Assembly (NCBI GenBank): GCA_903878805.1
Contig: CAIRJF010000001.1
Span: 1-42,554, forward strand
Source: an uncultured Verrucomicrobia subdivision 3 bacterium
GTDB lineage: Bacteria > Verrucomicrobiota > Verrucomicrobiia > Limisphaerales > UBA11358
DNA length: 42,554 bases
Reading direction: 5' to 3'
This document shows, one piece after another, positions 11,786 through 25,831 of the stretch. How positions within the stretch are numbered: the first letter of the stretch is position 1; each line of letters begins with the position of its first letter. A program made the position numbers and the translations under genes. The notes under the pieces were generated by a model. The model worked only from the letters and a program-made list of their open reading frames with translations, was not told the origin of the DNA and did not search any database.

Positions 11786-12370
11786 ATGAGCAAGGAAAAG
11801 AATATCACCCGGCCACCATTTCGCGAGGCGCTTGCCGCTTGGCGGAAGTTTTTGGGTGCGCACGATTCGGAACCCGCAGAACTATGGATTTTCGCAGAGA
11901 ATCTCTGTTTTGAACCTTCACGCGCGATTCCGGATAGTTTGCGCGTCGGCTTTCAGACCCGTTTCACGCCGCCGGCGGATGACGCGCTGGAAATCGCCTA
12001 CGACCATTTTGCGGAGACGGACGCGCGCATGGTTTTTTACCGGCTCGGCGCCAGTGCGCGCGGCTCCGTCTGCATTCTGCTGTGCGACCCGTGGTTTGAG
12101 GAGCGCGGCGAACGTGACGGTTTCAAGCGCCACGATAAATGGGGAATCTCATTTTACTCCGGGAACACCGGCGAGATTGAGGAAATCACCGATTTGTCCC
12201 GCTGGCTGCGGCGGGTGAAACGCAACTACGCCTTCCGTGATTTTGACTTTGCTATGTCGCTCGCCATGATTGACGAAATCAAAATCCATGGCCGTCCACT
12301 CCAGCCTTACGAGCGTTTTGCCGAAACTATGATCAACCGCCTGCGCCGCGTGCTGGGTCATCCGTCCTGA
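11786..12370 (+). CDS. Conserved-looking hypothetical protein, 194 residues
   Basis: I do not recognise the family. The frame has normal codon use for this genome and starts 21 bases after the epimerase stop, so it is probably co-transcribed. The protein is soluble, with no signal peptide or membrane helix. It is rich in acidic and aromatic residues, with a central stretch (ARMVFYRLGASARGSVCILL) that looks like paired beta strands and a helical basic C-terminus (ETMINRLRRVLGHPS). No cofactor or catalytic motif is evident. A role tied to polysaccharide synthesis would be a guess from position only. Confidence 0.7.
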   Translation: MSKEKNITRPPFREALAAWRKFLGAHDSEPAELWIFAENLCFEPSRAIPDSLRVGFQTRFTPPADDALEIAYDHFAETDARMVFYRLGASARGSVCILLCDPWFEERGERDGFKRHDKWGISFYSGNTGEIEEITDLSRWLRRVKRNYAFRDFDFAMSLAMIDEIKIHGRPLQPYERFAETMINRLRRVLGHPS

Positions 12371-12674: not shown

Positions 12675-12718
12675 CCGCCGGTGCGGACGATTCACTTCGT
12701 CGGTGCCGGCGGTTTTTT
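12675..12718 (+). terminator. Intrinsic terminator for the plus-strand unit
   Basis: The arms 12675-12690 and 12697-12712 pair at 15 of 16 positions, counting two G-T wobbles, around the loop TTCACT. TTTTTT follows at 12713-12718. It lies over the 3-prime end of mlaD on the other strand, so the convergent genes share this DNA. Confidence 0.65.
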
Positions 12719-13849
12719 GGTTTTGAACGCCGAGCGCAGAAACCAATGGCGCTTCAAGCCCTGCACCAGATCGTCCGCGTCAATCACCGCCTTGGAAATG
12801 CTGCCGAGCATGTTGGAATTGGCCTGCACCTGAACATTCAAGTTGCTTGTGATGCCCGCCAGATTTTCCAGCGTCGCGCCAACTTGCAGCGTGAGCAGGT
12901 TCAAATTGGTATTCGCGCTGATTGCCAGCGTGTTCGCGTTCGTCACCAGCGGCTGCGCGGCGACGAGCGTGTTATTCAAGTTGGAAGTAGCGCTCGCCGC
13001 ATTGTCGAGCACGGCGGCAATTTTATTCGTCAGCGAAAGAATTCCCGGCAGCGCGGTTTGGACTTGCGTGACGATGGCCTGCAACTGGTCAGAAACCGTC
13101 GGCGCTTCGACGGTGCGCAGCCACGCGGTGTCGTCGCCCGGCTGAAAAATTTTGTAGCGATGCACGCGCCCGTCCCAAGACGCCACGACGCGATGCCGGT
13201 CAACTTTGTTGTTGAAGACGTAAATGGAGTTCGACTCGAACGTGCATTGCGCGAGCAGTTGCGAATTGCTGTCGTCCAAAACAGTTTCCACCGCGTCGTA
13301 GGCGTGAAAAATCAAATTGGTTTTGCCAATGTAAATTTCCTGTCCCAGTTGCCAGTCGCCGGGTGAAGTTTTGGCAAGTCGTTTTGCCTCGTCCAATCCC
13401 AAAATGGAAATCGGTTGCGTCACGACGATTGCGTAGCCGTTCGTCGCGCGCGTGACTTCGAGTTGGCGCTGATTGAGAAAGCCGGCGCTGTTCACCTTCA
13501 GATACGAGCCGCCGGTCCAGAGGTAGCGAAAATAATTGTCGCGGATCTCAAAATCCACGAGGACGTTATGCGGGTCGCCCGGCGGCATCGCATGGATGCG
13601 CGTGATCTGGCCGACGGGAAATCCCATCATGTAAACGGAATCGCCCACGTTCAAGCCCGCCGAGCTTTGGACAAACGTGTGGAACGGTGCCTTGATGACG
13701 AACCAGCCCTTGCGCTCCGCTGTGTGGTAAATGTAGTAGCCAAACCCAAACAGCAACAACGCGGTCGCAAGAAACACAAACCAGCCCACGGCGCGTTCCA
13801 CCTTGTTGAGGCGCGTGCGCAGTTGCGGAGTCAAATCTTGGAGCGGCAT
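12692..13849 (-). CDS. mlaD: MCE-domain lipid-binding protein of an Mla-type transporter
   Basis: Encodes 385 residues. One N-terminal membrane helix (about 20-42) is followed by an MCE domain (about 50-130; VQSSAGLNVGDSVYMMGFPVGQITRI). After it comes a long, asparagine- and alanine-rich helical C-terminus (about 240-360; repeated SNLNNTL / NANTLAIS-like units) expected to form the hydrophobic tunnel of the MCE ring. MlaD-type proteins carry phospholipids between inner and outer membrane. It is the third gene of mlaE-mlaF-mlaD, starting 12 bases after mlaF. It is longer than E. coli MlaD (183 residues) and closer in size to the MCE proteins of other diderms. The symbol names the role; the exact lipid is unknown. 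Confidence 0.85.
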   Translation of the reverse strand: MPLQDLTPQLRTRLNKVERAVGWFVFLATALLLFGFGYYIYHTAERKGWFVIKAPFHTFVQSSAGLNVGDSVYMMGFPVGQITRIHAMPPGDPHNVLVDFEIRDNYFRYLWTGGSYLKVNSAGFLNQRQLEVTRATNGYAIVVTQPISILGLDEAKRLAKTSPGDWQLGQEIYIGKTNLIFHAYDAVETVLDDSNSQLLAQCTFESNSIYVFNNKVDRHRVVASWDGRVHRYKIFQPGDDTAWLRTVEAPTVSDQLQAIVTQVQTALPGILSLTNKIAAVLDNAASATSNLNNTLVAAQPLVTNANTLAISANTNLNLLTLQVGATLENLAGITSNLNVQVQANSNMLGSISKAVIDADDLVQGLKRHWFLRSAFKTKKPPAPTK

Positions 13850-13861
13850 AAATTTATCAGG

Positions 13862-14650
13862 TCACATGATTGCGGCAGTTGGCTCGGCCAGCAATTCTTT
13901 TACGGCGGTGCTGGCGGACGACGCGACTTCGTTCCAGACGCCAATCACAGAGAAAACTTTTTCGTCCAGCACGGCAAATCTTCTTTGCGTATGCCGCCAT
14001 GAACGCAATTCGTCGGTGCTCGCAATAATGGTCAGCGGCTGGCCGCCCAACCATGCGTGACCCACGCGGAGCTGTTCGAGAAATTGCAGCAGCCATTGGC
14101 GATGTCGCACGCCGAGTCCGCCAAGCGGTTGATCAAGCAACAGCAATTCCGGCTTCAAAATCAAGGCGCGAGCGAGCGCCGCGCGCTGCCGCCAGTTGGC
14201 CGCAAGATTGACTGAAGTGGAATTGGCGAACGGCGTCAGCTCCATGATTTCCAGCAGCGCCGACACATTTTCAGAAACCTCGGCCTCTGAAAGATTCTTT
14301 TGGTAGCGCAATGGCAACGCGACATTTTCGGCAACGGTCAATTGGCTGAACAATTTTCCGCCAGCGAAAACAAAACCCACGCGCAAACGTTCCGCGAGCT
14401 GCGCTTCGCTGAAGGAATCCGTCTCGCAACCGAACACGCGGCAGCTTCCGCGCGACGGCAAAAGCAGGCCGGCGGCGGTCATCAGCAAATCGCTTTTGCC
14501 GGATTGTTGCTGACCAGCGACGACCCAAAATTCGCCGGACGCGACCGACCAATTGACATTTTCCACGACCGTAAGCGACGAGTCGCGCAGCGTGCTGATG
14601 GCGGCATCACGCATTTCGATGACGGTGGAATTTAAAATATTTTCGCTCAT
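13862..14650 (-). CDS. mlaF: Mla-type ABC ATPase subunit with degenerate catalytic motifs
   Basis: Encodes 262 residues, positioned as the ATPase between mlaE and mlaD (ATGA overlap with mlaE). The fold is recognisable, but key residues are changed. Walker A reads GQQQSGKSD (46-54), keeping only the lysine core. The Q-loop glutamine is alanine (GFVFAGG, A96). The LSGG signature is LAANW (149-153). The Walker B glutamate is glutamine (LLLLDQP, Q174). The D-loop aspartate is glycine (GGLG, 177-180). The switch histidine is replaced (IIASTDE, 209-214). E-to-Q at Walker B is the classic hydrolysis-blocking change. The gene is full length with normal codon use, so this looks like a maintained, slow or non-hydrolysing subunit rather than a decayed one. 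Confidence 0.8.
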   Translation of the reverse strand: MSENILNSTVIEMRDAAISTLRDSSLTVVENVNWSVASGEFWVVAGQQQSGKSDLLMTAAGLLLPSRGSCRVFGCETDSFSEAQLAERLRVGFVFAGGKLFSQLTVAENVALPLRYQKNLSEAEVSENVSALLEIMELTPFANSTSVNLAANWRQRAALARALILKPELLLLDQPLGGLGVRHRQWLLQFLEQLRVGHAWLGGQPLTIIASTDELRSWRHTQRRFAVLDEKVFSVIGVWNEVASSASTAVKELLAEPTAAIM

Positions 14651-15507
14651 GTCACGAGATAAAGCACAATGAATACGGCATCAATCAGCACACAGACGAT
14701 GACGCCTTGCGTGACCGCGCGCACAGCCACGCGTGAGACGTCTTCGAGCCGCAGCGGTTGCGCGAGGCCGTGATAGCACGTCACAATCGCGATGAAAAAT
14801 CCAAAGGCCATTGTCTTCAGCGCGAGCAGCGCGAAGTCCAGCCAGTTCAACGCCTCGGTGATTTGCTTGAAATAATCGCCCGGCGTCAGCGCGACGTCCT
14901 GCAAAAACGCGAACAGATAACCGCTCGCCAGCGCGCCGATGATTAAATAAATCGTCAGCGAAAAAATTCCCAGCGCCATGCCGATGACGCGCGGCACGAT
15001 GAGATAATGCACGGGATCAATGCCGAGCGCTTCGAGCGCCTCGACTTCGCCGAGCGCGCGCGCGGTGCCGAGTTCGATGACGTTCGCCGTGCCGACGCGC
15101 GCGAGCACGAGCATCGCCGTGAGCAGCGGACCGAGTTCGCGCACAATCACGATGACCATCGTCGAGCCGAGATAATCCGTCGCGCCGTATTTCGCCAGGG
15201 CAGAAACGGTTTGGCCGACGACAAGAAAACCCAATGCCAGCGCGATGAAAAAGAACATCGGCAAGAGCGAAACGCCAGAGCGATTGATTTCGTGGCGAAT
15301 GCGCGGCTGCATGACGCTGCGCGCAAAATTGAATTTTTTGATGATGACGCCGAGCGTGATCAACGCAAACGCGCCGAGTCCTTGCACGGTGAGTAGCGCG
15401 AGAAATAATTTTCGTCCGAGCCAATCGGTGTAAGATTTGGGCGTGGCGGCGTGGCGGAACACTTGAATGTTCGCCAGTTCAAAAACCTTGCCCAGATTGC
15501 CGCGCAT
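14647..15507 (-). CDS. mlaE: MlaE-type ABC permease
   Basis: About 286 residues from ATG 15507. Its motifs are typical of the MlaE/YrbE permease family: IVIVRELGPLLTAMLVLARVGTANVIELGTAR, then EVEALEALGIDPVHYLIVPRVIGM. Five or so membrane helices follow, the last ending near QGVIVCVLIDAVFIVLYLVT. It transfers lipid between the inner membrane and the MCE ring. I start it at 15507 because the longer in-frame TTG at 15543 coincides with a -35 element (TTGACC) whose -10 lies seven bases before 15507. It heads the mlaE-mlaF-mlaD unit. Confidence 0.9.
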   Translation of the reverse strand: MRGNLGKVFELANIQVFRHAATPKSYTDWLGRKLFLALLTVQGLGAFALITLGVIIKKFNFARSVMQPRIRHEINRSGVSLLPMFFFIALALGFLVVGQTVSALAKYGATDYLGSTMVIVIVRELGPLLTAMLVLARVGTANVIELGTARALGEVEALEALGIDPVHYLIVPRVIGMALGIFSLTIYLIIGALASGYLFAFLQDVALTPGDYFKQITEALNWLDFALLALKTMAFGFFIAIVTCYHGLAQPLRLEDVSRVAVRAVTQGVIVCVLIDAVFIVLYLVT

Positions 15508-15514
15508 GAAGGGA

Positions 15515-15543
15515 AGCGTAGGACTCAACCGGCGCGCGGTCAA
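15515..15543 (-). promoter_or_regulatory. Promoter of the mlaEFD unit (leaderless type)
   Basis: Read on the minus strand: -35 TTGACC (15543-15538), 17-bp spacer, -10 TACGCT (15520-15515), seven bases, then ATG 15507. Confidence 0.55.
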
Positions 15544-25015: not shown

Positions 25016-25831
25016 TCACCCGAACCGGCCTGTCACATAATCTTCGGTCTGTTTTTTGGAAGGGTTGGTGAAAATTTTCCCCGTCGTGTCAAATTCGATG
25101 AGTTCGCCGATGTAAAAAAACGCCGTGTAATCCGAGATGCGCGCGGCCTGCTGCATATTGTGCGTGACAATGACGATGGTGAAATCTTTTTTCAACTCCA
25201 AAATCAATTCCTCGATGCGCGCGGTGGCGATGGGGTCGAGCGCGCTGGCCGGCTCATCCATCAAAATGATCTCCGGGCGGATGGCGATGGCGCGGGCGAT
25301 GCACAGCCGCTGCTGCTGGCCGCCGGACAGGCCGAGCGCGCTGGTGTGGAGACGGTCTTTGACTTCATCCCACAGCGCGGACTGGCGCAAACTTTTTTCC
25401 ACGGCGGTGTCGAGGTCGGATTTGGCTTTCACGCCATGCAGCCGCAGGCCGTAGGCGACGTTTTCGTAGATGGATTTCGGAAACGGATTGGACTTTTGAA
25501 AAACCATGCCGACCCTTTTGCGGAGTTCAATCACGTCCACGTCGGGACTGTAAATGTCATGTCCGCCAATCTTGCACGAGCCTTCGATGCGGACGTTGTC
25601 AATGAGGTCGTTCATGCGGTTGAGGCAGCGGAGCAGGGTGGATTTGCCGCAGCCGCTCGGTCCGATGAACGCAGTGACGACGCGTTCGCCTAGCGTGACC
25701 GAAATATTTTTCAGCGCCTTGGTCGCGCCGTAAAACAGCGAGAGCGACTCGATCTCGATTAGCGATTGCGCGGACGCAGCACCAGCCTGGGCTTGGGTGA
25801 CGGCGACGCGGGGAATGGAAATCTCGGCCAT
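25016..25831 (-). CDS. pstB: Phosphate ABC transporter ATP-binding protein
   Basis: Encodes 271 residues. All ATPase motifs are intact: Walker [10 protein letters not shown], the Q-loop [17 protein letters not shown] that is specific to PstB, signature [14 protein letters not shown], Walker [14 protein letters not shown] and switch histidine [13 protein letters not shown]. It powers PstC-PstA phosphate import. An extra N-terminal 20 residues precede the usual start region. Six bases separate it from pstA. It contrasts with the degenerate ATPase of the mla unit in the same window. Confidence 0.97.

Follow-up and report, generated by a model that had tools for sequence, protein, structure and literature searches.

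Loss of the ATP-hydrolysing residues of MlaF in a large group of Verrucomicrobia suggests an Mla-type machine that moves lipids without spending ATP itself

The role of ATP in Mla-type transporters and the direction in which they transport are both disputed, and a locus from an uncultured Verrucomicrobia subdivision 3 bacterium raises the question of what such a transporter does when its ATPase subunit lacks the residues that hydrolyse ATP. The window, by which we mean the whole analysed stretch of 42,554 nucleotides, encodes on its minus strand an mlaE-type permease (14647..15543; 298 aa counted from a TTG; PF02405, 174.7 bits), a 262-aa MlaF-like protein (13862..14650), identified as a pseudo-ATPase from its PF00005 match, comparison with its family and fold match, and mlaD (12692..13849; 385 aa, comprising an MCE domain and a long C-terminal part; PF02470, 37.4 bits against a cut-off of 25.1). 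The mlaF frame begins with an ATG in the stop codon of mlaE (an ATGA overlap), contains no internal stop, and ends 12 bp before the start of mlaD; the open frame and its two Pfam-matched neighbours confirm the preliminary description of an intact gene between mlaE and mlaD. The sole Pfam match of MlaF is ABC_tran (PF00005), which clears its cut-off of 25 with 69.4 bits, and none of the best 25 of 158 matching NCBIfam models reaches its curated cut-off (the top one, FtsE, scores 107.9 against 264.85); MlaE also scores under the curated cut-off of TIGR00056 (125.3 against 212.2), and MlaD under that of TIGR04430 (24.2 against 135). The locus can be classified as a putative Mla-type lipid transporter, the transport of lipid being expected from the family to which its proteins belong.

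The motifs of MlaF were read from its translation (all coordinates on the minus strand). Walker A is altered (GQQQSGKSD, 14489..14515), with Gln at the second Gly of GxxGxGK, the Q-loop Gln is replaced by Ala (14363..14365, within VFAGG), LAANW stands in the place of the LSGGx signature (14192..14206), Walker B has Gln for the catalytic Glu (LLLLDQP, 14126..14146), the D-loop reads GLG for GLD, and the switch-His position, residue 213, is Asp (14012..14014), in a region that reads ASTDE where canonical proteins have THD. The catalytic motif set (Q-loop Gln, LSGG, Walker B Glu, switch His) is absent, and the replacements reported in the preliminary description, including that of the D-loop Asp, were all recovered; missing from its list were the Gln in Walker A and the A-loop, for which no aromatic residue is visible in the aligned stretch. 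PstB, encoded in the same window (25016-25831) and proposed there as a control with every motif, indeed has canonical motifs, with THN in the switch. The AlphaFold model of MlaF has a pLDDT of 91.5, its closest solved folds are MlaF chains, and the ABC ATPase fold is retained in this model.

The losses recur in close relatives and in a more diverse set. A protein search with the window MlaF matched 3021 proteins at E 0.001, the best 120 of which comprise the query and 119 homologues of at least 64% identity. Homologues from this search are labelled Verrucomicrobiae, and those in named genome records Verrucomicrobia subdivision 3. Among these best 120 of 3021, the Q-loop position is Ala in 114 and Gln in 2, the two signature glycine positions hold Gly in 4 and 1, the switch His occurs in none and the D-loop Asp in 13, while the eight commonest residues at the catalytic Glu position, none of them Glu, cover 119 of the 120; the P-loop Lys is kept by 117 and the Walker B Asp by all 120, and the fourth-position Gly of Walker A by none. 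At the level of genomes, a close match to profile A1 (E 1e-45) is present in 201 of 293 sampled members of the order, or 123 of the 153 of good quality. In a sample of 387 genomes of the phylum searched with the broader profile A2, only two (G000 and G295) score above 190 bits, the next match reaching 175.8, and these two are the only genomes of the window's order listed in that sample.

For a more diverse comparison, loci were fetched as 40 regions and 14 degenerate loci of named genome records, and later as 20 more regions. The resulting 72 rows comprise the window, 53 loci of the first fetches, 8 of a further set and 10 of the later regions; a second window row, L209 (the same gene as L063), L248 (truncated), L261/L339 (in part unreadable), L323 (treated separately) and 28 same-genus loci (L143-L170) were dropped. 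The canonical comparison set holds 29 MlaF-like rows, with L216 (the same as L038) dropped. The signature residues SGG occur together in 0 of the 72 degenerate proteins (Ser in 18, the first Gly in 1, the second in 7), the catalytic Glu in 2 (L172, L329), the switch His in 2 (L176, L177) and the Q-loop Gln in 4, and every one of these tested residues is present in 29/29 canonical controls. None of the six residues is kept by 41 of the 72 proteins, one by 28 and two by 3; the 28 same-genus loci retain Gln in 8, the signature Ser in 6, its first Gly in 1 and its second Gly, Glu and His in none. Among 152 control ABC loci, which include genes fetched twice, 145 have all five tested residues and 4 have four, and the remaining three include the gene of genome G681 discussed at the end. 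The degenerate proteins also have features of their own as a family: W34, W42, Y116 and W186 are 96-100% conserved among them and differ from the canonical consensus. The core claim of the preliminary description, a conserved MlaF without hydrolysing residues, is strongly supported by this comparison: the substitutions are shared by the 72 diverse members and the 120 close proteins, and relatives with canonical residues, sought inside the degenerate family, were not found. Operons of the family also occur in metagenome-assembled genome records titled Klebsiella pneumoniae and Akkermansia muciniphila (L071, L072, L074), the first of which is probably a mislabelled or contaminated bin.

In an MlaF tree of 104 rows, 73 degenerate rows lie on one side of a branch with support of 98/99, which is present in 97% of 200 bootstrap trees, the bootstrap being not fully settled. 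By alignment and tree, the catalytic residues are thereby shown to have been lost across one monophyletic family, and a recent mutation of a single lineage is ruled out, the degenerate MlaF being one old clade. That the gene is decaying or wrongly sequenced is hardly credible, even though mlaF evolves faster than mlaE (median dN 0.294 versus 0.138) and fourteen of the listed A1 matches (G490, G515, G561 and G582 among them) are flagged with a stop in the matched stretch: in the four of the fourteen that were examined (G456, G511, G522, G561) the flagged stop is the gene's own end, and the frame is open at 55/55 loci. Besides, dN/dS calculated for 31 loci (29 from the window's own genus), for which 386 of 465 pairs were usable (dS 0.05-1.5), is below 1 in all 386 for mlaF, with a median of 0.29, in agreement with purifying selection; the closest pair gives 0.16 at dS 0.17, and the medians for mlaE and mlaD are 0.16 and 0.23, a few values being inflated by frames left untrimmed upstream. 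From these pairwise values, mlaF is therefore constrained, but less so than its permease. Sequencing error or a pseudogene is ruled out by the many assemblies, the purifying selection and the invariant residues specific to the family, and the assertion that the losses are not a reading error stands, as they recur in the 119 listed homologues and the 72 diverse members.

A constrained protein might still hydrolyse ATP slowly, with other residues replacing the canonical ones. Some ABC sites do work with single deviant residues, and in most members of the family the catalytic Glu is replaced by Asn (51 of 72) or Asp (7 of 72). Here, however, four independent elements were lost together, the 41 members that keep none of the six tested residues would have to be accommodated, and the Gln in Walker B of the window protein is the type of change named in the title of PDB 7cgn (MlaF E170Q), so that we regard slow hydrolysis as highly improbable. 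The persistence of single catalytic residues in some members (the Glu, His and Gln counted above, the last most often in the same genus) is nevertheless a counterpoint to the complete absence of hydrolysis.

The partners of the degenerate MlaF are kept as well. At 55 loci including the window (L209 being the L063 contig), a single-sequence search detected mlaF in 55, mlaE in 54 and mlaD in 47; the sole locus without mlaE, L195, lies where its contig ends, and the E-F-D gene order is kept across loci. Genes flanking the operon in the window occur at 10 of 70 loci at most, in close relatives only, most flanks being short (a few kilobases). The three mla genes seem to stay linked to one another in neighbourhoods that differ, and these give no functional clue, the Pfam names of nine other neighbours being unrelated. 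A 194-aa frame at 11786-12370 (plus strand), without a Pfam match, accompanies the mla genes at 9 of the 70 loci, which all belong to close relatives, and one weak epimerase match at L338 is the exception to the restriction of flank matches to close relatives.

The permease encoded beside the pseudo-MlaF is of a distinct type. The window MlaE shares 47-85% identity with 19 permeases that accompany other pseudo-MlaF proteins and 24% with the canonical MlaE of its own genome; with profile A4, 45 of 63 genomes have one MlaE at 281.9-462.7 bits, and the best other MlaE match scores 145.4. Twenty of the 92 genomes that have no close MlaF match were tested, of which 17 also lack the special MlaE, and the other three (G413, G415, G418) have it together with a diverged degenerate MlaF. 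An MlaE of the ordinary type is present in all 63 genomes tested, and the search of the window's own genome for a second, canonical mlaF, suggested in the preliminary description, found one in an mlaE-F-D operon on contig C28 (L001 / L013), with all motifs; the MlaF beside the ordinary MlaE was examined in this genome, and the others were assessed by MlaE. Just upstream of the C28 operon there is a frame of at least 465 aa with no function assigned.

Whether the pseudo-MlaF still docks on its permease can be judged from the MlaE coupling helix, which mediates the MlaE-MlaF contact in E. coli (PMC7790496). The corresponding segment, GTARALGEVEALEALGIDPVHYLIVPR, is encoded at 14989..15069 (minus strand; alignment A4) and is the expected docking site for the ATPase; 8-12 of the 12 residues of its core, EVEALEALGIDP, are kept in 34/34 rows of A4. 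As the helix that makes the contact in E. coli is kept, docking of MlaF on the special MlaE is probably retained. In a rival explanation, a canonical ATPase, e.g. the MlaF of the second operon, would serve this MlaE, pairing with or replacing a pseudo-MlaF that has only a regulatory function. A borrowed ATPase is conceivable because all 63 genomes also have an ordinary-type MlaE, the own genome encodes a canonical MlaF, and mycobacterial MceG is a single ATPase serving several transporters (PMC9947336). We find this arrangement rather improbable, as identity between the two MlaE proteins is no higher than 24%, and pairing of the two kinds of MlaF would leave both sites incomplete, with the pseudo subunit contributing no signature to its partner's site and having neither Glu nor His of its own.

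The evidence that weighs most comes from a branch in which no mlaF is found in the operon. In a sample of 286 genomes of the class, the special MlaE, taken as a score of at least 198 bits (the next match being at 147.2), occurs in 62: 46 from the order and 16 from families f143, f144 and f145. In f144 it is present in 10 of 11 genomes, the eleventh being 53% complete, and eight of these ten carry the degenerate MlaF. In the two others, G691 (95% complete) and G703 (99%) of genus g325, mlaE and mlaD overlap directly by ATGA, with no gene between them (L325:3328-5030 and L326:1683-3481); both MlaE proteins match PF02405 and both MlaD proteins PF02470, and this direct arrangement is known from these two genomes only. 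The best A2 matches elsewhere in G691 and G703 score 138.7 and 131.5 bits, i.e. in the range of canonical ABC proteins. The coupling helix has decayed along with the gene: ten of its residues are deleted in the MlaE of G691, and its sequence is unrecognisable in that of G703. A protein search with the G691 MlaE extends this observation, as among the 120 proteins in the matches listed, 76 (P0121-P0195 and P0209, P0121 being the query from G691) retain between 0 and 5 of the 12 residues of the helix core and the other 44 retain 9-12, which is a clean split; in 32 of the 76 the segment is shortened to 15-25 residues from 27. These 76, metagenome proteins among them, were assessed by their protein sequence.

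Fifteen rows with a decayed helix form one clade in the MlaE tree (100/100), and this MlaF-less branch is sister to the pseudo-MlaF branch (94/77). Its nesting within the latter, suggested by the taxonomy of f144, is not shown by the MlaE tree, and because the branch is sister rather than nested, the order of events is not settled. By comparison, a related branch is shown to have no MlaF gene between mlaE and mlaD together with a decayed coupling helix, and the joint loss of gene and helix is what would be expected if the transporter works without an ATPase. An ABC permease may accordingly persist in evolution after losing its ATPase, with the coupling helix decaying upon that loss. Three mechanisms had been offered in the preliminary description, namely nucleotide sensing, transport along a gradient and recruitment of another ATPase; of these, movement along a gradient agrees best with the data, as in one branch MlaE and MlaD are kept without an MlaF between them, and a recruited ATPase is disfavoured, at least in the MlaF-less branch, because the helix of MlaE that would receive it has decayed there.

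The sensor needs a closer look, as the degenerate proteins have not lost everything. In this explanation a nucleotide (ATP, ADP or another) would bind to the pseudo-MlaF but would not be hydrolysed, and its binding would open or close MlaE. The P-loop Lys52 is retained in 69 of 72 members, Gly51 in 71 and the Walker B Asp in 72, and conservation of the P-loop region (0.69) exceeds the protein mean (0.55). The retained Lys, Ser/Thr and Walker B Asp look odd for a pure scaffold and may leave room for nucleotide binding. On the other hand, no more than half of the members (36 of 72) have the second Walker A Gly (the fourth position of the motif), the residue after the P-loop Ser/Thr, where a contact to the α-phosphate is expected, is Asp in 44, no aromatic A-loop residue is seen, a closed ATP sandwich looks unlikely because the signature is gone, and the MlaF-less branch needs no such sensor. 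We consider a nucleotide sensor unlikely, if less so than a borrowed canonical ATPase.

The explanation that we favour, and hold to be reasonably probable, is that of a diverged Mla-type (MCE/ABC) transporter, MlaE-MlaF-MlaD, in which a conserved pseudo-ATPase that hydrolyses no ATP takes the place of the ATPase subunit, with lipid moving down a gradient. The MlaEFD machine would hydrolyse no ATP; MlaE would pass lipid between the inner membrane and the tube formed by MlaD, down a concentration or affinity gradient; the pseudo-MlaF would hold the MlaE dimer in a shape that accepts lipid, or gate it; and it would be dispensable, as in the MlaF-less branch. Passive transport by MlaE-MlaD is what we infer from these sequences. 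A bolder version, to which we lean only slightly, sees in the verrucomicrobial MlaE-MlaD a conduit, a passive (or ion-driven) lipid channel between membranes in which MlaF would mostly be a dead scaffold, discarded together with the coupling helix in one branch. A similar ATP-independent transfer of lipid, from MlaD to MlaC and prevented by ATP hydrolysis, has been described for E. coli MlaFEDB in a review (PMC10212509); the same review, however, takes the physiological direction of Mla transport in E. coli to be retrograde, with a requirement for ATP. Nor is an inactive ATPase tolerated as a rule: in M. tuberculosis, mutants of MceG in Walker B destabilise the transporter (PMC9947336).

Lipid transport by MCE systems without ABC ATPases has a precedent in PqiABC and LetAB, which are said to work in this way, but with an inner-membrane protein of the PqiA type, distinct from the ABC permeases to which MlaE belongs. 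No PqiA-type protein was found here, only PF02405 matching the membrane protein of the window, L325 and L326 at E 0.001. Degenerate sites are also familiar from ABC exporters such as TM287/288 and TAP, in which the Walker B Glu, the switch His and the signature are substituted in one site and one complete composite site is kept; a homodimer of the window MlaF, in contrast, would by its sequence have no complete composite site, and a mixed dimer with the canonical MlaF of contig C28 is the less probable alternative. The MlaFEDB complexes of E. coli, P. aeruginosa and A. baumannii (PDB 6xbd, 7ch8, 7d06) have a catalytic MlaF, unlike the window system, which also differs from them in its components: no STAS protein was found among the six window proteins scanned, MlaC was matched in 0 of 20 relatives, the own genome included, and MlaA in 6 of these 20, the own genome not among them and none of the six with an MlaC match, so that the own genome lacks matches to both of these components of the proteobacterial form. 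All but one of the eight MlaA matches fall within frames of 486-724 aa, and MlaA may be part of larger proteins in these relatives. The minimal MlaEFD of Veillonella parvula likewise has three genes and a long MlaD, and MlaABC is absent; the MlaF of this system is said to be much like that of the model diderms, and the accessible part of that paper (PMC10665443) makes no mention of a degenerate MlaF, the closest remark in the literature searched being its use of MlaDE besides MlaDEF clusters because the annotation of MlaF was uncertain. Mycobacterial Mce1/MceG (PDB 8fed; PMC9947336) likewise combines permeases of the YrbE/MlaE type, MCE proteins and an MlaF-like ATPase, but MceG keeps and needs the motifs that the window MlaF has lost.

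No description of a degenerate MlaF family was found in the literature searched, in which most subscription papers and the bioRxiv preprints were not included and sources were in part seen incompletely. The novelty is that of a variant within the Mla/MCE ABC transporters; the kind of protein is not new. What the ATPase contributes can be studied here in a natural experiment, in which a clade devoid of hydrolysing residues is compared with the canonical paralogue that accompanies it within one cell and with a branch whose operon is missing the ATPase gene, and the degenerate clade may help to explain how phospholipids travel between membranes.

One further operon may bear on how the residues were lost. 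Genome G681 (family f145) has an mlaE-F-D operon (L323:3567-6056) with a half-degenerate MlaF: the signature and switch His are missing, but four residues are in place, namely the P-loop Lys, Q-loop Gln, catalytic Glu and D-loop Asp. In the MlaF tree this protein is placed with the canonical rows, outside the degenerate clade, and its MlaE joins the special type (100/99). As both proteins form long branches, for which false joins are possible, the MlaF of G681 is graded as only a possible intermediate, a possible INTERMEDIATE, and it is the partial case nearest to the canonical residues.
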